DNA of 64,000 nt, taken from the NCBI GenBank assembly GCA_025358575.1, contig JANYJA010000060.1:1-64000 (forward strand). The letters run 5' to 3'. The translations under genes and the position numbers were made by a program. Shown here in pieces: positions 32,286-46,123 of the stretch. Numbering within the stretch: the stretch's first letter is position 1; every line of letters begins with the position of its first letter. The stretch comes from Terriglobia bacterium (lineage in GTDB: Bacteria > Acidobacteriota > Terriglobia > Bryobacterales > Bryobacteraceae). The notes under the pieces were generated by a model. The model was not told the DNA's origin. It did not search any database and worked only from the letters and a program-made list of their open reading frames with translations.

Positions 32286-33236
32286 TCAATTTCTGATCGT
32301 GAAGCCGGGGCGCGGTTGCGAAACTACAGCGAGCTTGTTGGCAACACGAAGTCGCTCCATAACAGCAATGTGTCTGTCCTCTTCCATTTTGATAGAAGCG
32401 GGGTCGGTCGGAGCCGTCAAGGGATCGAGGTATGGAATTGATTTGTATCCAACACACACAACTAATGTTTTGTTGTCCAGATCTGGAGCGGGAGGACCAA
32501 TTCTGGCGGTCCAGTTGTTTTCACGTAAGAACCTTAACAAGGTTCCGGAGGCCCCATCGGCCAAATCCACAGGTTCGGGATTGCCAGTCACTACCGAACT
32601 TGGTTTGAAAATGACAACGCCATCATAGAATCTTCCGTTTAGCGACGGATTTGATTCTATCTTGGTGACATTCCATTTTGCCGCTAATAGAATGCACTTA
32701 AGAGAATGTACCGCTCTAATTACCTCTTGATCTTGGAGATAGTTAATCTCGACCGTTATATCTCGAAACTGCATGAGTGGAAAGAAACACTGCGTTCCTT
32801 CTGTGGTAACGGCCAAGTCTCTGGGCGTTAAGGGTTTTTCCAATTCTAGGCGCTTAAGTTTCTCCGACTCCGCGACGCTGTTAGCTATCGCAGCTCGCTC
32901 GTATGCTTCGGCTGCTTTTTGTTCAGACTCCGTTATTAGTTGATTTGACTTCTGTTCAATATCAGAGTTGACGGATCGAAGCGTACGCTCTTTTCGGTGC
33001 GCAAGGAATTCAGCGATTAGTTCCCCCGCAACACCTAGGGTGACTAGTCCTGTACCAATTATCTCAACAAGAACCCTCCAGTCAAATTTATAAATCAGCG
33101 AAGTGACAGGAAAGAAAAGTTCAAGTGAAAGGCCAATGACAATGACGCCAGTTAAACCGACCATCCAAATACCCAAAGAGTCTATAGACTCTTCTAGGCT
33201 CTGTCGGCGTTCCTCTAGCTCCGCTTCAGGCTTCAT
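32286..33236 (-). CDS. Passenger two-TM coiled-coil membrane protein, unrecognised
   Basis: 316 residues. N-terminal acidic helix (EAELEERRQSLEESIDSLG), TM1 about 24-45 (VGLTGVIVIGLSLELFFPVT), TM2 about 53-76 (VLVEIIGTGLVTLGVAGELI), a coiled coil about 80-125 (HRKERTLRSVNSDIEQKSNQ), and a cytoplasmic C-terminal domain of about 170 residues of unknown fold with a conserved-looking core (TARIGPPAPDLDNKTLVVCV). It is not a transposition protein. The gene lies wholly inside the IS1-type element and is transcribed away from the small basic gene, with a 104-bp shared promoter region. Its base composition is less GC-rich than the host. I do not assign a function. Confidence 0.75.
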   Translation of the reverse strand: MKPEAELEERRQSLEESIDSLGIWMVGLTGVIVIGLSLELFFPVTSLIYKFDWRVLVEIIGTGLVTLGVAGELIAEFLAHRKERTLRSVNSDIEQKSNQLITESEQKAAEAYERAAIANSVAESEKLKRLELEKPLTPRDLAVTTEGTQCFFPLMQFRDITVEINYLQDQEVIRAVHSLKCILLAAKWNVTKIESNPSLNGRFYDGVVIFKPSSVVTGNPEPVDLADGASGTLLRFLRENNWTARIGPPAPDLDNKTLVVCVGYKSIPYLDPLTAPTDPASIKMEEDRHIAVMERLRVANKLAVVSQPRPGFTIRN

Positions 33237-33340
33237 GGAACGCCAACGTAAGCGCAGATTGTACTGTAGACTCGTGATGCTTGTTTGTCTTGTGATTCAT
33301 ATTTTCGTGATGGTGGCTCTGCATGTGAGATAATGGTACC

Positions 33341-33610
33341 ATGCCACCACGAGCAAGCAAAGCCAAGAGCCCGCGATTGAAAGACCCCGTATTGTTTGCC
33401 AAATCCCTCATGGAGAGCGTAATCGGAGAGAAGTGGGACGGTACACCGCTTGAGCATCCCCCGGACCGAGAAAAGAACCCTCACGCCGTCGCTATGTCTA
33501 AGCTGGGAGCGTCCAAGGGAGGTAAGGCTAGAGCCGAGAGCTTAACACCTAAACAACGAAGCAAGATAGCAAAAAAGGCAGCAAAAGCACGTTGGGGTAG
33601 GGTAGCTTAA
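33341..33610 (+). CDS. Passenger small basic protein with GGKARAxxLTPxQR motif
   Basis: 89 residues, strongly basic. The C-terminal part ASKGGKARAESLTPKQRSKI continuing to KKAAKARW is a motif seen in many short proteins from phages, plasmids and chromosomes, often of unknown function and possibly nucleic-acid-binding. The N-terminus (MPPRASKAKSPRLKDP) is Lys/Pro-rich. Divergent from the membrane passenger gene and 69 bp before the transposase start. It might regulate the element or act with the membrane protein; neither is shown by the sequence. Confidence 0.7.
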   Translation: MPPRASKAKSPRLKDPVLFAKSLMESVIGEKWDGTPLEHPPDREKNPHAVAMSKLGASKGGKARAESLTPKQRSKIAKKAAKARWGRVA

Positions 33611-33643
33611 CCACTTTATTTTGCATTATCTGATCGTTGATTG

Positions 33644-33672
33644 TTGACATTGCATCCACGAGCAAGCATAAT
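33644..33672 (+). promoter_or_regulatory. Transposase promoter, near-perfect sigma70 type
   Basis: TTGACA (33644-33649), 17-bp spacer, CATAAT (33667-33672). The ATG of the transposase follows 7 bp later at 33680, without a good Shine-Dalgarno, so the transcript would be leaderless or nearly so. Confidence 0.7.
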
Positions 33673-33679
33673 AAGAAGT

Positions 33680-34531
33680 ATGAACAGGATGGATACAGCA
33701 AGACGCGCTCAAGTGGTCCGGTGTCTGATCGAGGGTTGCTCGATTAATTCGACCGTTCGCATGACGGGCGTCGCGAAACATACCATCCTGAAACTGCTGG
33801 TTGAACTCGGTTCGGCTTGTGCCGAATTTCTGGATGGAGCGATGCAGAATCTCAACTGTAAGCGCATTCAGGTTGACGAGATTTGGCAGTTTGTCGGATG
33901 CAAGTAGAAGAACGTCACGGTGGATAAGCTCGAACGAGACGGAGTTTGCGGCGACATCTGGACATGGACCGCGATTGACGCCGATACCAAGCTAATCCCA
34001 TGCTGGATGCTCGGGATGCGCGATCCCTCCACCGCCCGTGACTTCATGACGGACCTTGCTGGACGGCTTGCCGATCGCGTACAGCTTACAACTGACGGCC
34101 TGAAATGCTACTTGACCGCCGTCAGTAGCGCGTTCGGTGAGGATGTTGATTACGCGATGCTGGTGAAGATTTACGGAAACGAGCCGGAAGGTCACAAGCG
34201 CTACAGCCCCGCCGTCTGCATCTCATGTGAGAGCCGAAACGTTACAGGTACACCGGACCCTCAGCACATTAGCACGAGCTATGTTGAGCGCGCCAACTTG
34301 ACCATGAGAATGAATATGCGCCGCTTCACTCGCTTGACGAACGCGTTCAGCAAAAAGGTTGAGAATCATGCCGCTTCGGTTGCGCTCTACATGATGCACT
34401 ACAACTTTGGCCGCGTTCACATGACGCTCAAAACGACCCCGGCTGTTAAGGCGGGAATCGCGGATCACGTCTGGTCCGTGGAAGAGATCATCGGCTTACT
34501 CGAAAAGCGCGAAAAGTCCGTCGCGGCCTGA
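33680..34531 (+). pseudogene. IS1-family DDE transposase interrupted by an in-frame TAG
   Basis: Reading through the TAG gives 283 residues with IS1-type features throughout. There is an N-terminal helix-turn-helix (STVRMTGVAKHTILKLLVEL), then the catalytic residues Asp66 in QVDEIWQF, Asp139 in LTTDGLKCY and Glu203 in STSYVERANLTM. IS1-type cores such as GDIWTWTAIDADTKLIPCWM and KKVENHAASVALYMMHYNF are also present. Both halves are in the same frame; TAG is codon 76 (33905-33907), between the first and second catalytic residues. The first half alone cannot be active. Either the element is dead or depends on readthrough. There is no A-rich slippery site like that joining insA and insB in E. 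coli IS1. Confidence 0.88.
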
Positions 34532-34534
34532 TTG

Positions 34535-34550
34535 AAACTGTACCACTACC
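34535..34550 (-). repeat. Right terminal inverted repeat of the element
   Basis: Read from 34550 on the minus strand: GGTAGTGGTACAGTTT, one mismatch to the left repeat at position 10. It begins 4 bp after the transposase stop. Confidence 0.85.
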
Positions 34551-34558
34551 CGATTGTC
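34551..34558 (+). repeat. 8-bp target duplication, right copy
   Basis: CGATTGTC, identical to 32257-32264, directly next to the right inverted repeat. Eight to nine bp is the known target duplication size for IS1-type elements. Confidence 0.85.
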
Positions 34559-35391
34559 CAAACTGTCCGCCACGTAAAGTGTTCCGTGTTCGCTGAGACC
34601 AACTCCGGTCGGTCCGATCACCAGCGCCGCGGGGTCGGTGCGCTCGGGGAATCTTGTTGCCTATCACCGTCATCGATGCCACGTGCGGCATTTGCATTCC
34701 CGCTGTCACGAGTCCAATCCGAACAACTGTCCCCCCGTTTACGACGTTTGGCAACGCCGCGACAGTACCGTTGAGCACATTCGTTACGAAGAGCAATCCT
34801 TTGCCGCCTTCGTCGAGTGCCGCCATGTCCCACGGACCGTTAACCAGGGTGCCTTCGATTGTTTCAACAGCAACGCCCATGTTATTCAAAACGATGAGGC
34901 ATCTGGACCATCGTTGAAGTGCCATCGGTTGTCGGCAGACTGCCCACAATTACACAGGCGGAACGCAGTACGACGAGAGCTGCCGTCAAACCCACTCACC
35001 CGGGGCATGCTCCGGGTAACGAACTCGCATCAATTTGCGCAAAGAGGGCCACGGTTCCGTTGGGTGCGACCTCGACGATAGTAGTTCCCGTCCCTTGCAA
35101 ATTCGCACTGTTATTGAAGTTGATGATTAACATATAGTCAGCCTGCAACTTCCCGGGGCTCACGACTACCCTCTCCATACCGTATGGATTGAGGTCGCCA
35201 TTAGCAGGTACTGTGGACGCCACCGTTCTGATGTTCAACATCTTGGCCTCGTCCAACCGATCAGCGATGGCTACCCCCGTCAGCATAGATAGTCCGACTA
35301 TTCCAAATATCACTTTTCGTATTCTCATATTCTTCCCTCCTTGCCGGTTATCCACCCTACGGACATTAAATCTTTAATTATCCGACGAAAC

Positions 35392-35419
35392 GTGAAAGCG
35401 TTGTAAAACTTTAGTAAAA
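35392..35419 (+). promoter_or_regulatory. Triple GTAAAA direct repeat, 11-bp period (CpxR/OmpR-like operator)
   Basis: GTGAAA at 35392, GTAAAA at 35403 and GTAAAA at 35414, each 11 bp apart, one helix turn. This is close to the enterobacterial CpxR box GTAAA-N5-GTAAA and to OmpR/PhoB-type tandem half-sites. It lies about 65 bp upstream of the NHL pseudogene start (minus) and about 170 bp upstream of the cytochrome gene (plus). Confidence 0.55.
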
Positions 35420-35467
35420 ACTATGGAGTTACTACTCCATACTCCGAAGCCAGGCACGAAAGACGGC

Positions 35468-35484
35468 TTTTACAAAGTTTTTAC
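35468..35484 (-). promoter_or_regulatory. GTAAAA direct repeat, 11-bp period
   Basis: On the minus strand CTTGTAAAAACTTTGTAAAA: half-sites at 35484-35479 and 35473-35468, 11 bp apart. It is in the 256-bp gap between the NHL pseudogene and the di-haem cytochrome gene, in opposite orientation to the site at 35392. Confidence 0.5.
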
Positions 35485-35584
35485 AAGATAACTGCAACCG
35501 GCATTAGTGGGATCGCTACTCTTACCTATAGCAAATGCACTTCCTACGTTTTGTGCCGTGCTAATAGTCGTGCGGATACAGAGG

Positions 35585-36721
35585 ATGGACCTTACGCATA
35601 AGGATGCGCCTAAATGCGAACGGCTAGTCGCGATATTCTTGTTAGCCGTTTCGTTGTCAGCACAGACTGTGGGGCCAGAAGACCGCCGGGTTACGGCCGT
35701 GCAAGGCGTAAGCTGGCTCAGTCATCTCCACCGAACCTTCAATGAGACCAGTATGGGCAGGACGGGGCATTTAGGACCACCTCCGCCGCTGCCGGGACAA
35801 TCGCTTCATCGCTGGCAACCGAAGCCGTCCACGGGCTTCGCAAGGCCTCTACTGGTTTTTGATGGTGCGGACTTGTTTCGTATCAACTGTCAGGGATGCC
35901 ACCGCGATTCTGGTCTCGGCGCGCCCCCGGAAATCAACTCGGTCATCGATCCAGTCCGTGCCACTTCCGTCGCGCTTATCAGGGAACGGATGAAGAAGGC
36001 GCATCAAGACATGAGCGCGGCGGATATAGCCGAGCTTGCCAAACAGTCCAAAACTCTCTTGCTGCAAAGGCTCCGGAACGGGGGCGATAACATGCCGCCG
36101 CCCATCTTGAGCGAATTAGAAATCGGCTCGGTTTTCGCCTATCTGGAACAACTATCCGGTGTGCCAAGTGCTGAAAAAAGACAAATAGCAGTCAAGGAAT
36201 CTGCGTCCCGTCTGGGCGAGCAAATCGTAAAGGCTAACTGTCACACCTGTCACAACGCGACCGGGGCCAATCCCGACCCTCAACAGCTATTAGACGGCGC
36301 GATTCCACCGCTCAGCACCCTAACCGCGCGCGTGAACCAGACCGAGTTTATCCGCAAAGTGGTGGACGGCGCCCCTATCGCCATGGGAATGCCCCCAATG
36401 TCTTACCGAGGCAGAATGCCAGTGTTTGTCCACCTGAGCGAGGAGGAAGTCAGCGCGGCGTACCAATACCTGGTGCTGTACCCGCCAGTGCCCAATCCCA
36501 TGAGTTGGACCGGATATAACCCAGCCAAGACGCCGGAGCCCAGGCTAGAATCCTCGTCCCCAGCGATTGTCCGTGAGCCGGCTGAACACAGTCCCGCAGC
36601 GCTTCCGCGAAGGGCGCCCTTGCCATCGTCCCACCCGCGACCTGCATCTAGTGAAAAGCCAACTGAGACCATAGTGACCCAAGCGAGGTCATCTCGCTGG
36701 GGTGACCGGCTTCGGCGATAA
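35585..36721 (+). CDS. Secreted di-haem c-type cytochrome
   Basis: 378 residues from the ATG at 35585, which starts a plausible signal peptide (CERLVAIFLLAVSLSAQT). A GTG at 35507 gives a longer, less likely form. Two cytochrome c domains are seen: haem site CQGCH in LFRINCQGCHRDSGLG and CHTCH in IVKANCHTCHNATG. Candidate axial Met ligands are NMPPP and GMPPMSYRG. The 90-residue tail is Pro/Ser-rich and probably unstructured. It acts in periplasmic electron transfer; partners unknown. GTAAAA repeats lie upstream, and a convergent secreted protein follows 16 bp after the stop. Confidence 0.82.
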   Translation: MDLTHKDAPKCERLVAIFLLAVSLSAQTVGPEDRRVTAVQGVSWLSHLHRTFNETSMGRTGHLGPPPPLPGQSLHRWQPKPSTGFARPLLVFDGADLFRINCQGCHRDSGLGAPPEINSVIDPVRATSVALIRERMKKAHQDMSAADIAELAKQSKTLLLQRLRNGGDNMPPPILSELEIGSVFAYLEQLSGVPSAEKRQIAVKESASRLGEQIVKANCHTCHNATGANPDPQQLLDGAIPPLSTLTARVNQTEFIRKVVDGAPIAMGMPPMSYRGRMPVFVHLSEEEVSAAYQYLVLYPPVPNPMSWTGYNPAKTPEPRLESSSPAIVREPAEHSPAALPRRAPLPSSHPRPASSEKPTETIVTQARSSRWGDRLRR

Positions 36722-36737
36722 GAGCCCTGACGATGAT

Positions 36738-37994
36738 TCAAGGCCGTTCGGTGCTCTGTAAGTCCAGACTCACCCGTTCCCCATTGATTGACACAAAGCT
36801 TTGATTAATCAGTTGTTGGCCAGAACAGTCGTATTGCTCATAGCAAAGAAGGAACGCCGTCGGGAAAATGTACTCGACCGCTTCGGCGCTTGCACCCGCC
36901 GACCCCGCAAGCCTCACGGTGGTGCTGAAATCAATCCCATCGAAATCGGGGCGTGTTTTGAGAGTTGCGAGAATTGGCCGGATTAGATGCGCAACGTGCT
37001 CATCAAACGCTAGAGCGGCTATTCGATATTGAGAGCCCGGCTCGGTCTCTTTGAGAGTGGTTGTGATTGACAACTGCAGGTAGGTCCCCTTATGAAACTC
37101 TATGAAAGCGGGTGGGGCGTAAGCGACGAAGTGAGCCTCTTTATCCAGTTCACTAACCAACCGATTCAACGCTTCCTGGCTTGAGCTTTGCCTTTTGCGG
37201 AGGATCTCCCGACTCCCAGCCTTTGGGGATTCTGGCGGTCCGGAGGACGCGAACCTCCGCGGGTCCTGCGGATCGGAAATCTCGGTAATACTTGCGTCTA
37301 CCGCTGGTTTCGTGTTTAAGTGCAACGGAAGCGGTTGAGGTGTGTTTTCCGCGGTGATCTCGGCGTGTCCTCCCGGCCAGCCCGCTACCGGCTTCCCGTC
37401 GACAAATAACGTGTCCTGCATGAGTGCGGCCTGCCGCTCTCCGGCAGTGCCTGCCGAAATATAGAGAATAGCCGAGGGGCGCGACAAGATGAATGCATCG
37501 TTTTCCGCATTCTCCGTGCTTACGCCCAATACTTTTTTTCGCACATGATGCGAAATCTCGAGTGAAAACGCCTGCAGCTTAGCCTCCCGCCCCAGAACTG
37601 GCACCGCCGCCTGTAAAATCGGCACCATAACGTCCTGCACGGTACGCAGCGCACGCTCTTCTTTGTCCATCAACTCCGCTGAGTAAGAAGCGTAGTAATT
37701 CGCTGTAATCTCGAGCACGGTCTGGTCGTGAAACTTATAAAATTGGATAGCTCGCTGATCCTTACTTTGCTTCTGTTGCTCGTTCAGATCCAGCGCGCGG
37801 CTAAAGTACAACCGATACGGAAATCGATGCGCCGAAAGGGCAGTCCCAACTGTCTTCAACTCCGCGAAGTGCGCTTCCTGCAAAGCGCGCATATCAAGGT
37901 TCCGGATCTCTGGCGGCGAAAGAACCTGCGCAAAAGTGCCCCCGGATAAGGCAGCGAAACAAATGGCTGCGCATGACACCCTAATTGTTTGCAT
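36738..37994 (-). CDS. Secreted hypothetical protein
   Basis: 418 residues. A signal peptide is clear (RVSCAAICFAALSGGTFAQV). The mature protein is mixed alpha/beta with no recognised family: FPYRLYFSRALDLNEQQKQ near the start, AILYISAGTAGERQAALMQD in the middle, and a C-terminal part with two Cys (LLCYEQYDCSG) that could form a disulfide. It is intact, unlike the two genes upstream on the same strand (cupredoxin and cytochrome-barrel pseudogenes); the 62-bp gap to the cupredoxin suggests one former operon. Confidence 0.7.
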   Translation of the reverse strand: MQTIRVSCAAICFAALSGGTFAQVLSPPEIRNLDMRALQEAHFAELKTVGTALSAHRFPYRLYFSRALDLNEQQKQSKDQRAIQFYKFHDQTVLEITANYYASYSAELMDKEERALRTVQDVMVPILQAAVPVLGREAKLQAFSLEISHHVRKKVLGVSTENAENDAFILSRPSAILYISAGTAGERQAALMQDTLFVDGKPVAGWPGGHAEITAENTPQPLPLHLNTKPAVDASITEISDPQDPRRFASSGPPESPKAGSREILRKRQSSSQEALNRLVSELDKEAHFVAYAPPAFIEFHKGTYLQLSITTTLKETEPGSQYRIAALAFDEHVAHLIRPILATLKTRPDFDGIDFSTTVRLAGSAGASAEAVEYIFPTAFLLCYEQYDCSGQQLINQSFVSINGERVSLDLQSTERP

Positions 37995-38056
37995 GGATCG
38001 ATACCTTTCGGACGAAGTGGGACTGGGAATCGGAAGACCCCGATTGACGCGGTCGG

Positions 38057-38664
38057 CTACTTCGACAAAGTGAAGTCAAGTGCTGCGTCGCCCGTTACCT
38101 TCAGGGATTTGGATTGCACCTTCATGCCTTCGTGCCATGCCGAAGCCGTGTATTGACCATCTGGCAGGTTCGGAATCTTATAAGTTCCGTCTGCCTCGGT
38201 AGAGCGGAATATGGTGTCGGAGCTACGAGAACGTACGCCGACATCTCCGCGTGGACGTTACAAAGAAGGGGCACGACGCCGGGACTATCGAACTTAAACT
38301 CCCGCTTTTGTCCAGAAGGCCACGTCCCGAGATTGTGGCCCATTTTCTTGTTGCCGCCTACCGACGGCCAGAAGATGCTGTGGGCCACTTTGTCGCTGTT
38401 CAGAAACTCCACACCCGTGCCGACTGAAACCGCAATAATGTGCGGCCGAAAGAGCAGATCTTTTTGATTTACCATAACTTTTTCGGTCGGCGCCGGAAAG
38501 CTCTTGCCGGGGACCGCTCCAATGTAGACTAATGAAACTCCCTGGGTGCCTGCTACCTTTCCGGAAAGCGCGCTGGCATGTAACTCGGATGCCTGAATCA
38601 GCGCACAGGCGAGCAAAACCGTTGTGACGACTTTTACCTGGGTGTGCTTTAATTGATAAGTCAC
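38057..38664 (-). pseudogene. Cupredoxin (plastocyanin-like) exported protein, frameshifted
   Basis: The first 150 codons give a signal peptide (VVTTVLLACALIQASELHA) and a cupredoxin domain with copper ligands in VAHSIFWPS and LLCNVHAEMSAYVLV (His, Cys, His, Met). Near 38210 the frame breaks. Continuing in the neighbouring frame gives TEADGTYKIPNLPDGQYTAS, then WHEGMKVQS and a stop at 38059-38057, the expected carboxypeptidase-regulatory-like C-terminal segment. One missing T (TATTCC for TATTTCC) explains it. The copper domain itself is intact, so a truncated protein could still be made. It starts 18 bp after the cytochrome-barrel gene. Confidence 0.75.
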
Positions 38665-38682
38665 TATAAATCCTTTCGATTT

Positions 38683-40320
38683 TTAGTACACAAATTCGAG
38701 CCCGACTAGCGCCGTGTTTACTCGGAACGAGCTGAGGGCAGGGGCGGCTCCTGTCCACGGGATCGGTGAAGACAGTGGCCGTTTGTTTAGGACGAAACTG
38801 GTACTCAAATGAGGCTTTGATATTCGGGTGAATCAAAAAATGCACGCCGGGGGTAGAGCGATTCCGCTGCGAACGTAAGGGTCCAAAGAAAGGCGTGCCG
38901 CTGGCTAAAGCGAGGCTATTAACGCGATCCGCGCTGGAATGCGCGCCGTCCCACCGCCCAATCGCATAATCCAGGGAAGAACCAAGAAATCCGCCATTGA
39001 ATTTTGCCGGAACGCTTGAGACGAAACGCACCGGCGCGGGGCTGCTGAGCCAATAGGCAGCGAGATCAGCATGCCATTTTGATCGATCGGCAGTAGGTTG
39101 TTGTCGCGGCCATACATGTAGACTCCAAACAGGTTTAAGGTTCGATAGTTAAAGCTAAAGTCTCCACCGGCCCGGTAATAGGGTTCACGCGCATAGACCA
39201 GCCGGGTATCGCCTCCGGATACCGAAGCGAGAAAGCTCTGTTGCGATTTTCCGCGCAGGTAAAACGTGCCGGCATTTAGATACGTATGATCGTGGGGACC
39301 GGTCGTCCCCGCGGCCTGAATGGCATTCCGGCTCTCAGAATCGCGCTCCAGGTTGAACCGGTACGAGAAACGAGCGTATACGTCATTAAGACTAGAATGC
39401 GAGCCGAATCCGACCCCGCCGTTCGATCCACCAGTTGCCGAGGGTACAAAGGGGCTGGTGTTGTTGGTCTGACTCAACCCGCTGGTATTTTGGTTCAGAA
39501 TGGCGACTGAATAGCGGTAGCCCCCGTACGTGTGTCCACCGCTCAGCTCAACCCCTTTGCCCGCGCCTGCAAAAGTGAATTGGTTGGACACGTTCTGCTG
39601 ATTCGCAAGCATGGAGTTGATTGCGCCGATGTTGCTTTGCGAGTAAATGTCGTAGGGGCTCAAATTGATGCTGCGCGCCTGCGTAAATGGCAGATCAAGT
39701 TCGAACTGCCCTGAGCGGAGGCTCAGCGAGTCTTTGGGTAGTTTCAAAAATCGGCCGATGTTTACGAAACGCAGATATGCGACTCCCAAGCCCCCAGCGG
39801 CGTTCGAGCCGCCCACGCTGATGTCATCATCTATCCAAAACGCGATATCGCCGCCGAAATTGCCGGCCGTGAAGATGCTAAAGAATCCGGTTTAAAAATC
39901 GGTACGCGGGATGATCTGAGGCAGCGCGCCGGGTGCAGCCAACGCATTGAACCGGTTTCGGTTATTGCCCGTCAGTTGAAAAAAGCTATTCATGCGCAGG
40001 CCGATTGGCGGCATTCCGGGAATCTGGCCTGGCCATACGCTGCGCGGCCAAACCTCTTTTTGAGCCGCACTTCCCAGCAACGTTGGCGCTATCTTCATAA
40101 AAATCTCATCATCTTTCGGGATCTTGAAGCCAGTGTCCTTGAATGGCTTCCCGAAATCGTTCAAGTTAGGAAAATCCACGTGACAAGTGCTGCACGACGT
40201 TTGATATTGGCGCGCGAACGCGGGAATCGACTATGTTCTCATCGGCACGTATAACAGAAAAATGGCAATGATCACGACTGGTCCCGGAATATAAACTCGC
40301 TGGCAGCTAGTGGCCCTCAT
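38683..40320 (-). pseudogene. Cytochrome c-outer-membrane barrel fusion gene, four lesions
   Basis: The start is ATG 40320 with a signal peptide (IPGPVVIIAIFLLYV). A haem motif CSTCH (40194-40180) in a short cytochrome segment follows (FARQYQTSCSTCHVDFPNLN), then about 400 codons of beta-barrel-like sequence (GGDIAFWIDDDISVGG, LRSGQFELDLPFTQ, YRYSVAILNQNTSG) ending LVGLEFVY at 38683. Lesions: in-frame TAG at 40233-40231, in-frame TAA at 39894-39892, a frameshift near 39035 and another near 38750. Related intact proteins in acidobacteria and deltaproteobacteria are annotated as cytochrome C; a role as an outer-membrane electron conduit is my inference. Confidence 0.72.
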
Positions 40321-40371
40321 CGCCGTGTCTTCCTTTAAGAACAACCGTAGTTCGCACAAAGGTTGGGAGTC

Positions 40372-40399
40372 GTTAATATCATGTAAAAGCATTGTAAAA
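40372..40399 (+). promoter_or_regulatory. GTAAAA direct repeat, 11-bp period
   Basis: GTTAAT at 40372, GTAAAA at 40383 and GTAAAA at 40394, each 11 bp apart. It lies about 50-80 bp upstream of the cytochrome-barrel pseudogene start (40320), in promoter position. Same pattern as at 35392. Confidence 0.55.
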
Positions 40400-40458
40400 G
40401 GCGGCTTACCGCGCACGACGGCACATGTCCGTCAGTAACTCTCACCTTGATCGTTGGC

Positions 40459-40560
40459 TTAGTGTCTGCGAAAGTGCGAGACAGTTATGTATAACCCCCA
40501 CGCGATTGCGAACGAGATCACAAGAAATAGTGAAATAGCGAACATCACGGAAGCGAACAT
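40459..40560 (-). CDS. 33-residue single-TM membrane protein
   Basis: A start at ATG 40560 gives a protein almost wholly one membrane helix: MFASVMFAISLFLVISF, then AIAWGLYITVSHFRRH, with a positive C-terminus. A GAGGG ribosome binding site lies 7 bp upstream and sits in the loop of a perfect 7-bp hairpin. Comparable tiny membrane proteins stabilise or regulate larger complexes (KdpF, CydX type), but no such partner is adjacent, and I do not assign a family. A GTAAAA repeat lies about 60 bp upstream. The 414-bp gap between the pseudogene and the LigT-like gene otherwise holds only the regulatory repeats. Confidence 0.6.
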   Translation of the reverse strand: MFASVMFAISLFLVISFAIAWGLYITVSHFRRH

Positions 40561-40561
40561 G

Positions 40562-40582
40562 GATCAGCCCTCAGAGCTGATC
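40562..40582 (-). promoter_or_regulatory. Hairpin with ribosome binding site in its loop
   Basis: GATCAGC pairs perfectly with GCTGATC around a 7-base loop. On the minus strand the GAGGG ribosome binding site of the small membrane protein (40572-40568) occupies the loop and the stem edge. The stem could modulate access to it; alternatively the palindrome is a protein-binding site. Confidence 0.5.
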
Positions 40583-40617
40583 ATACGAAGGATGGGCATG
40601 GAAGTAGTCTCTAACCT

Positions 40618-40634
40618 GTAAAAACCTCGTAAAC
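40618..40634 (+). promoter_or_regulatory. GTAAAA/GTAAAC direct repeat, 11-bp period
   Basis: GTAAAA at 40618 and GTAAAC at 40629, 11 bp apart, about 58-74 bp upstream of the small membrane protein start at 40560. Same pattern as the three other sites in this region. Confidence 0.5.
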
Positions 40635-40734
40635 ATTGCGGTTATCCGCAAACTTACAGAAGGTGTGACAGAACGAAGGTGTAAAATTGCTGCACTGGCA
40701 ACTGGAAATCAATGCGCGGAATAAAATGCGGTAA

Positions 40735-41295
40735 TCAGCGCAAACTCGGAGTGGGAAGCGGAAAGTCGGCTAGATCCCTCCACTGATTCTCGCCCTGATT
40801 TTGGACCAACGCCAAAGTATCCACACGAAAAGTCCGCGGACCGGTATAGCTCGCCCATCGACGCTTAGCTATTTCCAGAGCTTCCGCTACTTCGCTTTCT
40901 TCCAGATGCTGCGCGACGGTGATGTGCGGATGGTACTCGAAAGGTCCCTGATACCGAACGCATTTTTGATTCAGAGCACGGTACAACTCGCGGAGTGAAT
41001 GCGCGCCCTTCGCGATGCTGATATAAATGACGTGGGATTTTTGAAAAACTTCAACTTCGCCAAGGGTGATTTCGAACGCTGGGAAATCGGTCACGCCTTG
41101 CCGGATCTCCGCCGCCACCCGCTCCGGCTCGACCTTCACCGGGCGAGGCGGCAAAAGCGTCACGTGGGCGTGCGGGTTGCAATTAGGCGAAAGCTCCAGC
41201 CGCAGGTCATCCAGGAAAACCGCGAGCGTTTTCGGCAGGTAACTGACCAGAGCAAAATGATTTAAAAAATCCGACCCGTTCGACGAACAGCCCAT
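40735..41295 (-). CDS. 2'-5' RNA ligase (LigT)/cyclic phosphodiesterase-family protein
   Basis: 186 residues from the ATG at 41295. The two HxT/S motifs of the 2H phosphoesterase superfamily are present: HAHVTLLPPR and HPHITVAQ. Members hydrolyse 2',3'-cyclic phosphates of RNA or related nucleotides, and some ligate tRNA halves in vitro. The first motif reads H-V-T, the second H-I-T. It is a lone gene divergent from nuoI. Confidence 0.85.
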   Translation of the reverse strand: MGCSSNGSDFLNHFALVSYLPKTLAVFLDDLRLELSPNCNPHAHVTLLPPRPVKVEPERVAAEIRQGVTDFPAFEITLGEVEVFQKSHVIYISIAKGAHSLRELYRALNQKCVRYQGPFEYHPHITVAQHLEESEVAEALEIAKRRWASYTGPRTFRVDTLALVQNQGENQWRDLADFPLPTPSLR

Positions 41296-41381
41296 CACCG
41301 TCCCCGATTGTAGCGCGAATCTACTAGAAACGTGAAGCGAAACTGGGTTGCGCTAATCTAAGATTTGTATACGGTCGATAG

Positions 41382-41837
41382 ATGAAGAAATGGCTAAAAA
41401 GGATTCTGCTCACGGATTTGTGGCGCGGAATGCGCGTTACATTTCGGAACCAAAAGCCGAGTCTGATTTACACCGAACAGTATCCGGCGGAGAGACCGCA
41501 TGTCGCCGAGCGGTACCGCGGGGCACCCCGGCTCAATATCCATCCGGAGAACGGCGAGACTTTGTGTATCTCTTGCAATTTGTGTGCTTTAATCTGCCCC
41601 GAGAATCTGATCGTGGTGATCAGCGAGCGTAACGAAAAGACGCGGCACAAGGAGTTGATCCAGTTCACATACGACCTCTCGCGCTGTATGTTCTGCGGCC
41701 TGTGTGAAGACGCCTGCCCGGTGGATGCGCTGGAGTTGACGCAGGATTTCGAAATGGCCAGCTTCACGCGCGAAGGCCAGATTTGGGACCGGCAGATGCT
41801 CGAAGAAGGCCCGCTGCCTCGCGAGTACTCCAGTTAA
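41382..41837 (+). CDS. nuoI: NADH-quinone oxidoreductase subunit I
   Basis: 151 residues. Two [4Fe-4S] ferredoxin motifs are complete: CISCNLCALICPENL and CMFCGLCEDACPVDAL, which carry clusters N6a and N6b in the arm-membrane junction of Complex I. N-terminal basic amphipathic segment (KKWLKRILLTDLWRGMRVTF). It is the first gene of the block I-J-K-L-M-N-H; nuoA-G are not upstream, where a divergent LigT-like gene stands. Confidence 0.95.
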   Translation: MKKWLKRILLTDLWRGMRVTFRNQKPSLIYTEQYPAERPHVAERYRGAPRLNIHPENGETLCISCNLCALICPENLIVVISERNEKTRHKELIQFTYDLSRCMFCGLCEDACPVDALELTQDFEMASFTREGQIWDRQMLEEGPLPREYSS

Positions 41838-41859
41838 GTTCGATCTCATAGATAATCTA

Positions 41860-42366
41860 GTGTTGGACGTTTTCTTTTTCTATGCCTTTGCGGCGCTGGT
41901 GCTGGGCGGCGCGCTGCTAACGGTGACGCTGCGCAACACCGTGCATTGCGCCATCAGCCTGATCGCTTCGCTTTCGGGAGTGGCGGGAATTTTCCTACTG
42001 CAAAAGGCTGAATTTCTGTTTGCCGTGCAAATCATCGTCTATGTTGGCGGGGTGATGGTGCTGTTCCTGTTCGTGATCATGCTGGTGAACCTGGACACGG
42101 CGGCGCGCGACCGGCAGTTCAACCGGCAATGGATCGCGGCGGTGGCCTGCGTTTTGGCGATTGGCGCTGAGGGGGTTTATTTCGTGCGATCTGGGTCGGG
42201 CGCTTGGACGTTTGCGGCACCGTCGGAGTTTGCATTGAGCGCGGGGAATACGGAGGACATTGCGCGGATGTTGTTTTCCGAATACCTTGTGCCGTTTGAA
42301 ATCGCGTCGGTGCTGCTGCTTGTCGCGGTGGTGGGATCGGTGCTGATGGCGCGGAGGGAAGCCTAG
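41860..42366 (+). CDS. nuoJ: NADH-quinone oxidoreductase subunit J
   Basis: 168 residues from a GTG at 41860, with five hydrophobic helices. The conserved third helix is IIVYVGGVMVLFLFVIML, including the Tyr-Val-Gly-Gly pi-bulge region. Part of the membrane proton-translocating arm of Complex I. nuoK starts on the base after its stop. Confidence 0.93.
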   Translation: MLDVFFFYAFAALVLGGALLTVTLRNTVHCAISLIASLSGVAGIFLLQKAEFLFAVQIIVYVGGVMVLFLFVIMLVNLDTAARDRQFNRQWIAAVACVLAIGAEGVYFVRSGSGAWTFAAPSEFALSAGNTEDIARMLFSEYLVPFEIASVLLLVAVVGSVLMARREA

Positions 42367-42675
42367 ATGGCTCCCATCACGACGGGTCACTATCTGGGGC
42401 TAAGTGCCGCGCTCCTGCTGATCGGCGTGGCGGGCGTTCTCACGCGGCGCAGCATCGTGGTCGTGCTAATGTCGATCGAGCTTATTTTGAACGCCGTGAA
42501 TATCAACCTGATTGCGTTTTCAAGCAACTCGCAGAACGTGCGGGGCCAGATTTTCGCGATGTTCATTATTGCCGATGCCGTTGCGGAAGCGGCCGTCGGC
42601 TTGGGAATTCTGATCGCGCTATTCCGGAATAAGGACACGGTTCTGGCCGACGAAGTGGACCTGCTGAAGTGGTAA
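42367..42675 (+). CDS. nuoK: NADH-quinone oxidoreductase subunit K
   Basis: 102 residues, three TM helices. The two conserved Glu residues are present in MSIELILNAVNINLIAF and ADAVAEAAVGLGILIALFR, which act in proton transfer (MrpC-like subunit). It overlaps nuoL by 7 bp. Confidence 0.95.
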   Translation: MAPITTGHYLGLSAALLLIGVAGVLTRRSIVVVLMSIELILNAVNINLIAFSSNSQNVRGQIFAMFIIADAVAEAAVGLGILIALFRNKDTVLADEVDLLKW

Positions 42676-44639
42676 GCGCGCTCGACCAGTTGTGGATGAT
42701 TCCGCTGTTTCCGCTTGTCGGGGCTGCGGAGGCTCTGCTGATGGCAATATTTGCTCGGGGGAGGTGGAAGCGGGCGGTCAGCGTGTTCTGTCCGGGGATG
42801 GTGCTGCTGTCTTTTGTGTGGTCGGCGGCAGCGGTGATGACGCTGTCGCATGAACCGGCGCGCGTGCATCAGGTGATTTTGGCGTCGTGGCTTCCGCCGA
42901 TGGGCGCGGAATGGGGCATCTATCTCGATCCGTTGAGCGCGGTGATGATCCTGATCGTCACGGGTATCGGATTTTTGATTCATCTGTATTCGGTCGGATA
43001 CATGGCGCACGAGAGCGGATACGCGCGGTACTTCGGCTGCCTGAATCTGTTCGTCTTCTTCATGCTCGTGCTGGTGCTGGCGAATAACTACGCGCTGCTC
43101 TTCGCGGGATGGGAGGGGGTGGGGCTTTGCAGTTACCTGCTGATCGGATTTTTCTATCGGAAGCACGCGGCGGCCGCGGCGGGGATGAAGGCGTTTATCG
43201 TGAACCGCGTGGGCGATGCGGGCTTGCTGCTGGCGATTTTCATGCTGTTCGCGACGTTCGGCACAATTCGTTTCGCGGACATAGTGAATGTTCCTGCAGG
43301 CGGCGTGACGGTGCTGGCGCTGCTGTTGTTTGCGGGAGCGGCCGGGAAATCGGCGCAGGTGCCGCTGCATGTTTGGCTGCCCGATGCGATGGAAGGGCCG
43401 ACTCCGGTTTCGGCACTGATTCACGCGGCGACCATGGTCACGGCCGGCGTCTATTTGATTGCACGGTCAAGCGCGATTTTCGGCGTGTCACCCGAAGCAT
43501 CGGCACTGGTAGCGGCGGTTGGAGCGTTCACGGCGATCTTCGCGGCCATGATTGCGCTGGTGCAGAACGATATCAAGAAGGTGCTGGCTTATTCGACCAT
43601 TAGCCAATTGGGCTATATGTTCCTGGCGCTTGGAACGGGCGCGTGGTGGGTCGCGATCTTCCATCTGTTCACGCATGCGTTTTTCAAAGCGCTGCTGTTC
43701 TTGGGCGCGGGTTCGGTGATTCACGCGCTTGATGGGGAGCAGGATCTGCGGCGTATGGGCGGGTTGAAGAAGACGCTGACGATCACGCACGCGACCATGT
43801 TCATTGCGGCGGTGGCGATCTCGGGGATTCCGGGACTGGCAGGGTTTTTTTCCAAGGATGCGATTCTCTCGGAAGCGTTTCGCGCCGGATCGACGGCGTT
43901 ATACGTGGTGGGTCTGGTGACGGCGGGGCTGACCGCGTTCTATATGTGGCGGCTGATGCATCTGGCGTTTTACGGAAAAAAGAGCGTCCCAATTCATGCG
44001 CATGAGGGGCCGTGGACAATGCGCGTGCCGCTGATCGCCCTGGCTGCCGGGAGCTCGCTGGCGGGCTGGATCGGAGTTCCGGAGCAGTGGCACACGCCTG
44101 CGCTCTTTCGAGCTTTTCCATTATGGATCGCGCCGGTATTTCACCAAGCGCTTCGTGAGCCTGCCGGAGATCCGAGGATGGAGTGGATACTCATGGGCGC
44201 GTCGGCTGCTGTAGCGCTCGTCGGCGTCACACTGGCCCGCTACTTCTACCATCACCGGCCCGCAATGCCGGGTTCCTTCGAGCAATCGCTTAGGCCGCTG
44301 CACGGAATCTTGCTCAACAAGTGGTATGTGGACGAATTTTATGAGCGCGTGTTTGTAAGTGGATTGGCTAAGGGCGGCGGTCGCCTGCTAAGCCGCTTCG
44401 ATACCGGCGTGGTCGATGGCGGCGTGAACGGAACGGCTTGGCTGACCCGCTTGTCGGGACGCATTTCAAAGTGGTGGGACGAGTGGGTGTTGGATGGCGG
44501 GATCACGCTCGGTGCTTATTTCGTCAAGCTGCTGAGCTACCCGGTGCGCGTGCTGCAGAACGGGCACCTGCAATCGTACGCACTCGTTTTTGCCATGGGA
44601 ATGGTGGCGCTGTTCAGCGTCTACGTGTTCAGCCGATGA
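42669..44639 (+). CDS. nuoL: NADH-quinone oxidoreductase subunit L
   Basis: 656 residues, antiporter-like subunit of the distal membrane arm. It has about 16 TM helices with the Glu in LLFAGWEGVGLCSYLLIG and Lys in GKSAQVPLHVWLPDAMEGPT. The C-terminal long lateral helix region (NGTAWLTRLSGRISKWWDEW) is present. Starts GTG within nuoK and overlaps nuoM by ATGA. Confidence 0.95.
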   Translation: MVSALDQLWMIPLFPLVGAAEALLMAIFARGRWKRAVSVFCPGMVLLSFVWSAAAVMTLSHEPARVHQVILASWLPPMGAEWGIYLDPLSAVMILIVTGIGFLIHLYSVGYMAHESGYARYFGCLNLFVFFMLVLVLANNYALLFAGWEGVGLCSYLLIGFFYRKHAAAAAGMKAFIVNRVGDAGLLLAIFMLFATFGTIRFADIVNVPAGGVTVLALLLFAGAAGKSAQVPLHVWLPDAMEGPTPVSALIHAATMVTAGVYLIARSSAIFGVSPEASALVAAVGAFTAIFAAMIALVQNDIKKVLAYSTISQLGYMFLALGTGAWWVAIFHLFTHAFFKALLFLGAGSVIHALDGEQDLRRMGGLKKTLTITHATMFIAAVAISGIPGLAGFFSKDAILSEAFRAGSTALYVVGLVTAGLTAFYMWRLMHLAFYGKKSVPIHAHEGPWTMRVPLIALAAGSSLAGWIGVPEQWHTPALFRAFPLWIAPVFHQALREPAGDPRMEWILMGASAAVALVGVTLARYFYHHRPAMPGSFEQSLRPLHGILLNKWYVDEFYERVFVSGLAKGGGRLLSRFDTGVVDGGVNGTAWLTRLSGRISKWWDEWVLDGGITLGAYFVKLLSYPVRVLQNGHLQSYALVFAMGMVALFSVYVFSR

Positions 44640-46123
44640 CCGACCACTTACTAAGCATCGTATTGTGCACGCCTTTAGTGGGGCTGCTGGTTTTACTGGT
44701 GATTCCGTCGGAAAATCGCTCGCTGCTGCGCATCTGGGCCAATGTCGCGGCGTTTGCGGGATTTCTGGTTTCGTTGCCCTTGGTATTCCGGTTCAACTCG
44801 TCTGCTAGCGGGTTTCAATTTGTCGAACGCGCGGATTGGATTCCGTCGCTCGGCGTGCATTATGCGATCGGCATCGATGGCATCAGTTTGCTTTTGGTAA
44901 TGCTGTCCACGGTCATCGGATTAATCGCTGTGCTGTGCTCGTGGGTTTCCGTAGAGACGCGCGTAAAGGGTTATTACGCGATGTTCCTGCTCCTGCAGGT
45001 GGGCATAATCGGAGTTTTTGTTTCGCTCGACGCGTTTCTGTTTTATGTGTTCTGGGAGCTCGTTCTCATCCCCATGTACTTCATCATCGGGCTATGGGGC
45101 GGACCGCGGCGGCTGTACGCGGCAATCAAATTTTTCCTCTTCACGCTGGTAGGTTCGGTGCTGATGCTGCTCGGTTTGCTGGCTCTTTACTACCTGCATC
45201 TCCAGCAGTTCGGATATTATTCGTTCGAGATTTCTGAACTCATGAAACTCAACCTGCCGCTGGCGACGCAGCAGTGGATCTTCTGGGCGCTGTTCTTCGG
45301 CTTCGCCGTGAAGGTCCCCATGTTTCCCCTGCACACCTGGCTGCCCGATGCGCATGTGGAGGCACCCACGGGCGGCTCGGTGGTGCTGGCCAGCGTAATG
45401 CTGAAGATGGGAACGTACGGGTTCATGCGCTTCTCCCTGCCCCTGCTGCCACAAGCCTCGGCGGATCGCATGATCGTGCAGATCATCGCGGTGCTTTCGA
45501 TCATCGCGATTCTTTACGGCGCGCTGGTGAGCCTGGTGCAGCAGGATTGGAAGAAGCTAGTCGCGTATTCGTCAGTCAGCCACATGGGTTTCTGCACGCT
45601 CGGTATTTTCGCCTTGAATGCGAACGGGCTCGTCGGCAGCGTCATTCAACAGGTAAGTCACGGAATCACGACGGGGCTGCTGTTCCTGCTGGTCGGGATG
45701 GTTTACGAGCGGCGACATACGCGCGAAATCGGCAACTTCGGTGGCTTGGCGCAAGTAATGCCTAAGTTCGCGGTGGCATTCGCGATCGCGATGTTTGCAT
45801 CCGCCGGACTGCCGCTGCTCAGCGGCTTCGTCGGCGAGTTCACAATTCTGCAAGGGGCGTTTCAGGCGAACCGGACATGGGCGGTGTGGGCCGTGTTCGG
45901 TGTGGTGCTCGCCGCGGCATATCTGCTCTGGCTGTATCAGCGGACCATGCTCGGCAAAATCACTCACGATGAGAACCGCCTCTTGCGCGATCTCTCGTGG
46001 CGCGAAGGCGCGGTGCTTCTGCCGCTGATCGCGTGGACCTTCTGGATCGGGATTTATCCCAAGCCGTACTTCGATATTCTCGCCAAGCCCGTCGCCGAGA
46101 TTGTGGCGCGCACACATAAATAA
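44636..46123 (+). CDS. nuoM: NADH-quinone oxidoreductase subunit M
   Basis: 495 residues from ATG 44636, which overlaps the nuoL stop (ATGA); an in-frame start at 44438 would lie inside nuoL. It has antiporter-type helices with the key Glu in FYVFWELVLIPMYFIIG and Lys in KVPMFPLHTWLPDAHVEAPT. Proton-pumping subunit of the Complex I membrane arm. Confidence 0.95.
   Translation: MTDHLLSIVLCTPLVGLLVLLVIPSENRSLLRIWANVAAFAGFLVSLPLVFRFNSSASGFQFVERADWIPSLGVHYAIGIDGISLLLVMLSTVIGLIAVLCSWVSVETRVKGYYAMFLLLQVGIIGVFVSLDAFLFYVFWELVLIPMYFIIGLWGGPRRLYAAIKFFLFTLVGSVLMLLGLLALYYLHLQQFGYYSFEISELMKLNLPLATQQWIFWALFFGFAVKVPMFPLHTWLPDAHVEAPTGGSVVLASVMLKMGTYGFMRFSLPLLPQASADRMIVQIIAVLSIIAILYGALVSLVQQDWKKLVAYSSVSHMGFCTLGIFALNANGLVGSVIQQVSHGITTGLLFLLVGMVYERRHTREIGNFGGLAQVMPKFAVAFAIAMFASAGLPLLSGFVGEFTILQGAFQANRTWAVWAVFGVVLAAAYLLWLYQRTMLGKITHDENRLLRDLSWREGAVLLPLIAWTFWIGIYPKPYFDILAKPVAEIVARTHK

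Follow-up and report, generated by a model that had tools for sequence, protein, structure and literature searches.

Why does one gene cluster of an acidobacterial genome carry the same tandem repeat four times, and which protein, if any, would read it? The question is raised by the window analysed here, the first 64,000 nucleotides of contig JANYJA010000060.1 from a member of the Bryobacteraceae (assembly GCA_025358575.1). In this stretch an initial annotation had pointed out four pairs of GTAAAA half-sites with an 11-bp period, located upstream of genes for a secreted NHL-type protein, a di-haem c-type cytochrome, a cytochrome-barrel/cupredoxin operon and a 33-residue membrane protein. The best explanation overall, and one which the sequence data make likely, is that these are regulated promoters run by an OmpR-type response regulator, which we designate RR-X.

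Tandem sites and promoter geometry

A scan of the window for GTAAAA-N5-GTAAAA returned three exact matches where 100 dinucleotide shuffles gave an expectation of zero, and a fourth site with one mismatch (GTAAAAACCTCGTAAAC) in which the GTAAA-N6-GTAAA core is exact; the four are spread over two intergenic regions (Table 1), and the reported cluster is thus real. Its positions needed adjustment: weaker third half-sites, present and in phase as described, start at 35392 and 40372, while the strong pairs begin 11 bases later. The statement that the window holds no other in-phase pair stands, because the only further matches at up to two mismatches (1339 and 6120) are at chance level (2.16 expected). 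The strict repeat period is 11 bp in all four sites, as had been proposed, although in CpxR notation this corresponds to GTAAA-N6-GTAAA and not to GTAAA-N5-GTAAA. An Rfam search of positions 33000–41400 gave no match.

Read in the direction of the gene, each site is TTTTAC-N5-TTTTAC, with a weak −35 element and a −10 element downstream at constant spacing. The reference for this layout came from other genomes of the family, in which the site often precedes the gene for A1, a stand-alone, receiver-less winged-helix Trans_reg_C protein of ~120 residues; the family-wide search covered 121 genomes, and a GTDB collection with overlapping species supplied a further set of A1 loci. When 28 A1 promoters were aligned on the site, two elements were conserved, an ACGACC-like −35 (+25) and a TAGNAT −10 (+48), with positions counted from the first TTTAC and a 17-bp spacer between the two, and among the GTDB A1 loci with an exact site the −10 is at +48/49 in 61/62. 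In our genome the same slot at +48/49 contains TANNNT in 6/10 sites (P = 9e-8 versus the flanking rate). The full promoter pattern, derived from the A1 promoters of the other Bryobacteraceae and searched with 3 mismatches, has five matches in our genome against zero for the reversed control, the five being the four window sites and one before the TIGR03118/decaheme-cytochrome operon. Because of this fixed layout of site, −35 and −10, and of the five matches against none, we read the four sites as operator-promoter units of an OmpR/PhoB-type regulator, predicted to be an activator. OmpR/PhoB-family operators lie next to or over the −35 element. The window sites are likewise direct repeats one helical turn apart and positioned near the −35, with one orientation relative to the gene and a fixed −10 distance; together with the enrichment at redox and envelope genes, this bears out the OmpR-type tandem-site reading put forward initially.

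The spacing was assessed over the whole genome (4.77 Mb, 95.6% complete) using pattern searches, with gene limits taken from the longest open reading frames (ORFs) of a simple ORF calling and no trained gene finder. GTAAA-N6-GTAAA occurs ten times, four of them in this cluster, and is the commonest of all GTAAA/GTAAA pairs at spacings 3–16 (55 in total; the other spacings have a mean of 3.5). The 10-bp form GTAAA-N5-GTAAA is found five times, and the single classifiable occurrence sits inside an ORF. All ten N6 sites are intergenic, versus 3/21 located control pairs with other spacings (one-sided Fisher 6e-6, or 3e-4 with the window's own four left out; hand calculation), hence the outcome which the initial annotation had named as fatal to its proposal, a pattern as frequent in coding or shuffled sequence as in promoters, is not what is observed. 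The concentration at redox and envelope genes for which it had proposed a genome scan is also seen among the genome's sites. TTTTAC-N5-TTTTAC points toward the downstream gene in 8/10 sites by the ORF list, with the broken barrel gene and the 33-residue gene judged by eye. Since the one-mismatch motif is not more abundant than its reversed control (18 vs 24 genome-wide), a loose matrix is useless here, and the search has to use the strict core and the complete promoter pattern.

The candidate regulator and its alternatives

In the family-wide search, the strict site is most often found directly upstream of A1 (34/96 sites, in 33 genomes), and an exact site precedes A1 in 62/78 GTDB loci and in 29/30 loci of the genome set. 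The GTDB loci are titled Acidobacteria, mostly Bryobacterales or Bryobacteraceae where order or family is named. A1 itself (L058–L087, L240–L319) has at least 53% identity across the family, a fixed aroA neighbourhood in many genomes and a near-invariant promoter, and we found no description of it in the literature. The second gene that the site accompanies is RR-X, encoding an OmpR-type response regulator with a receiver plus Trans_reg_C: when 71 RR-X loci were searched up to 320 bases upstream, allowing one mismatch, the site was present in 20/25 loci of A1-lacking genomes and in 0/46 loci of A1-bearing ones. The A1-lacking G100, G092 and G120 have it upstream of a full-length RR-X, and an exact site precedes the joint A1-like/RR-X gene pair in 4/4 genomes.

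In our genome the RR-X gene is interrupted by the ends of two contigs (C139:1-354 and C171:1-350). The C139 part ends KPFGT and the C171 part begins ARIHAVLRR, with ~4 residues missing between them in the alignment; the halves align end to end with full-length orthologues, and identity to the G100 protein is 74% for the first half and 68% for the second. RR-X lies directly behind the C139 NHL gene, and as the promoter of this gene bears the site (C139:1448) and a −10 (TACCAT at +49), RR-X is probably autoregulated via the NHL operon. Behind RR-X follows a row of genes for a lone receiver, a putative porin, a cupredoxin-like protein and a HisKA/HATPase histidine kinase, the latter standing at the end of the row both here and in G118 (Pfam); a kinase motif screen of the short flanks of RR-X found none within those flanks. 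Taken together, the footprint of the site and the gene neighbourhood make RR-X a likely binder of the window sites, and the four window promoters are probably under one regulator of a common type that would activate electron-transfer and secreted-protein genes. Binding by RR-X, the activation, the signal and the joining of C139 to C171 are all what we infer.

The targets recur across genomes. Site-bearing TIGR03118 genes occur in our genome and in G029, and in G046 such a gene and RR-X are divergently oriented on either side of the site; NHL genes with the site are found in our genome and G062, and Ferritin_2-like genes in our genome and G045 (the latter by sequence likeness). ECF sigma factor genes bear the site in G118, beside the RR-X operon (Pfam), and in G027, G039 and G076 (sequence likeness), while in G090 both TIGR03118 and NHL genes are close to RR-X. 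The ECF sigma loci with the operator are L229 (1836-2657), L143, L139 and L040, and the core promoter in G118 is A1-like (ACGAC, then TAGCAT). In two genera (L020 and L130, of G049 and G008) the operator lies upstream of a similar secreted-protein gene (DSWIYxALKRLAAMGY). A possible scenario, to which we give somewhat less than even weight, is a Bryobacteraceae redox/secretome regulon with one operator type, of which the autoregulatory copy moved between RR-X in some lineages and A1 in others, i.e. a signal-gated regulator was put under, or replaced by, a receiver-less one with the DNA code unchanged.

Several observations weigh against assigning the sites to RR-X. The genome profile search listed nine winged-helix regulator matches, and sequence alone cannot assign the motif to RR-X over the other OmpR-family proteins present. 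The 71 RR-X promoters do not count as independent data points, and since 4–6 changes on the tree suffice to explain it, the mutual exclusion of A1 and RR-X sites is strong as a pattern but weak as a count. RR-X of A1-bearing genomes has a near-identical recognition helix, yet there is no site at its own gene. The site before RR-X is usually reversed, with GTAAA reading on the coding strand, and autoregulation there may therefore be repression, or the site may serve a divergent gene. The own-genome RR-X is read across a contig gap and its C139–C171 join is presumed, and in relatives with readable loci the barrel gene has not kept the operator upstream. The idea that RR-X has lost its specificity in genomes with A1 was considered and rejected, as no such loss is seen in the recognition helix.

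The likeness to the CpxR box is real, as the published motif GTAAA-N5-6-GTAAA (PMC9600279) covers the N6 form, and the two most CpxR-like regulators of this genome each have something to recommend them as binders: the one on C196 lies beside a sensor kinase, and the one on C125 differs by no more than a bit in its scores for CpxR and for OmpR, its top match, and has a CpxR-like helix (SPFDRSIDMHVSHLRRKL). Their scores of 179 and 213 bits (the latter for C125) are both below the NCBIfam CpxR cut-off of 341, however, neither gene has an exact site upstream as cpxRA-type autoregulation would have it, and the genes that the site follows in relatives are those of RR-X and A1, both unlike CpxR. CpxR as the binder, which the initial annotation had brought into play, is therefore unlikely. 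RR-X itself is closer to MtrA, PhoB and KdpE than to CpxR. The stand-alone protein A1 may be the regulator in relatives, where the site sits right upstream of its gene, and by extension here; this has very little probability, and A1 was rejected for our genome, in which the best matches to its profile are ordinary regulators (1e-17, versus ~1e-50 to 1e-63 for most real A1) and its conserved locus (asparaginase / small protein / aroA) is complete but for A1 itself.

Alternatively, the TTTTAC pairs could be no operator but an element of the upstream promoter that RNA polymerase or a special sigma factor recognizes, for which an AT-rich motif with a fixed −10 distance and a single orientation at most targets would be suitable. 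We consider this improbable, somewhat more so than binding by CpxR, as the repeats are phased at 11 bp and a third copy is in phase with them, there are only 10 such sites per genome, the motif at RR-X is in the opposite orientation at variable distance, and the site is located where the genes of two related DNA-binding proteins are. Chance occurrence in AT-rich intergenic DNA is the least credible explanation and is largely refuted: the motif is short and AT-rich and its one-mismatch form does not exceed the control, but the shuffles gave no exact site, the −10 slot is filled well above the flanking rate, the full promoter pattern is absent from the reversed control, and the targets recur across genomes. 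The preferred regulator is RR-X. Its orthologue is nearest to RegX3, MtrA, KdpE and PhoB and below every equivalog cut-off (216 of 300 bits for MtrA, 208 of 296 for PhoB), and the system is best classed with the OmpR family as an unnamed member, neither Cpx nor Pho.

Target genes and state of the cluster

The sites do lie upstream of the genes named initially, whereas the gene calls themselves did not hold up, as the NHL and cytochrome-barrel genes are both broken in the window (Table 1). Because these two genes carry stops and frame changes, part of the operators' targets can be read as decaying here, while the cytochrome and 33-residue genes appear intact. The barrel relatives have open frames of 547–675 aa, the orthologues from 17 other genomes of the family being free of internal stops, and a second barrel copy in this genome (C232:95110-95976) is intact. 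In G015 (L118), an exception among the relatives, degenerate in-phase TTTACA/TTAACA/TTAACA repeats 11 bp apart precede the CXXCH codons of the barrel gene by ~420 bases. No Pfam match was obtained for the N-terminal piece of the NHL gene. An IS1-like transposase gene (DDE_Tnp_IS1; 33641-34531, plus strand), with an in-frame stop near 33906, adjoins the broken NHL gene and is likely a cause or a companion of the local decay. On the other side the cluster adjoins genes that were read by eye as a nuo (NADH dehydrogenase) operon (nuoI-J-K-L-M, 41382-46123, plus strand).

Table 1. Sites, predicted core promoters and genes of the cluster (window positions), and N6 sites on other contigs of the genome
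Feature	Position	Strand	Remarks
Tandem site 1 (GTAAAACTTTAGTAAAA)	35403..35419	+	Predicted operator of minus-strand NHL gene; exact match, 0 expected
Third half-site of site 1	35392-35397		GTGAAA, weaker, in phase
Core promoter of site 1	35365..35393	-	-35 slot ACGTTT (35388-35393), -10 slot TTTAAT (35365-35370)
Tandem site 2	35468..35484	-	Predicted operator of plus-strand di-haem cytochrome gene; exact match
Core promoter of site 2	35494..35522	+	-35 slot GCAACC (35494-35499), -10 TACTCT (35517-35522)
Tandem site 3	40383..40399	+	Predicted operator of minus-strand cytochrome-barrel/cupredoxin operon; exact match
Third half-site of site 3	40372-40377		GTTAAT, weak (2 mismatches), in phase
Core promoter of site 3	40344..40373	-	-35 slot ACGACT (40368-40373), -10 TACGGT (40344-40349)
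Tandem site 4	40618..40634	+	Predicted operator of minus-strand 33-residue membrane protein gene; one mismatch
Core promoter of site 4	40580..40608	-	-35 slot ACTACT (40603-40608), -10 TATGAT (40580-40585)
Secreted NHL-type protein gene	34496..35355	-	ATG near 35328; broken by stop and frame changes; six-frame reading
Di-haem c-type cytochrome (Cytochrome_CBB3/Cytochrom_C)	35585..36721	+	ATG 35585 after promoter; Pfam 2e-15
418-residue secreted protein	36738..37994	-	End of barrel/cupredoxin operon; no Pfam or NCBIfam match
Cupredoxin-like protein (Copper-bind)	38122..38664	-	Barrel operon; Pfam 2e-4
CXXCH outer-membrane barrel gene	38905..40320	-	In-frame stops and frame change
33-residue membrane protein	40459..40560	-	ORF; no Pfam match; start ~20 bases past predicted -10
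N6 site	C29		Precedes TIGR03118+cupredoxin protein, then DmsE-type decaheme cytochrome, then barrel
N6 site	C139		Precedes NHL protein
N6 site	C114		Precedes Ferritin_2-like protein
N6 site	C252		Precedes BON protein
N6 site	C34		Precedes FG-GAP protein
N6 site	C63		Precedes acyltransferase

Proposed mechanism and known systems

In the mechanism we propose, pairs and sometimes triplets of TTTTACA half-sites, with an 11-bp period on the coding strand and at about −60 to −45, would abut a poor −35 with a −10 behind it at fixed spacing. A winged-helix dimer of the OmpR/PhoB type, its subunits head-to-tail along the same face of the helix, would recruit RNA polymerase and so turn on the genes for c-type cytochromes, a cupredoxin, secreted proteins of the NHL/TIGR03118 type and further proteins of the envelope. 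The regulator here would be the two-component response regulator RR-X, autoregulated through the NHL-gene promoter, whereas in many relatives the autoregulatory site would instead be at the A1 gene. No such regulon has been described for the Bryobacteraceae (soil acidobacteria), as far as our literature search went. If true, this provides a predicted regulon with its operator code, promoter geometry and a candidate two-component pair, and a small list of targets (multihaem cytochromes, cupredoxins and NHL/TIGR03118 proteins), and the mutual exclusion of A1 and RR-X sites would be a natural experiment on the passing of an operator from a response regulator to a receiver-less relative.

With the CpxR box of the E. 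coli CpxRA system, the window sites share the letters of the half-site, the tandem layout, envelope targets and a spacing of 6 within the published range (PMC9600279); they differ in their strict 11-bp period and flanking TT (TTGTAAAA), in having cytochromes, cupredoxin and NHL/TIGR03118 proteins as targets, in a candidate regulator that is not a CpxR orthologue, and in the receiver-less partner of the A1 type. The Pho regulon is not a match either, since RR-X falls short of the PhoB model and no phosphate-uptake genes were seen directly downstream of the ten sites (the pst genes themselves were not searched for), although the spacing of the Pho box is resembled by the variant repeats upstream of the G015 barrel gene. 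RR-X shares its receiver plus Trans_reg_C and its best matches with the MtrA/RegX3/KdpE/PhoB regulators, but at scores below their equivalog cut-offs. In architecture the window sites resemble the operators of the OmpR/PhoB family, for which published sites are direct repeats (PMC4832192), with 11-bp spacing and a frequent third or extra repeat in the case of ArcA (PMC3798270): the sites of PhoB, ArcA and M. tuberculosis PhoP have the same 11-bp direct repeats, sometimes three in phase (PMC3798270, PMC4832192), whereas the window sites combine this arrangement with a different half-site sequence and a different regulon.

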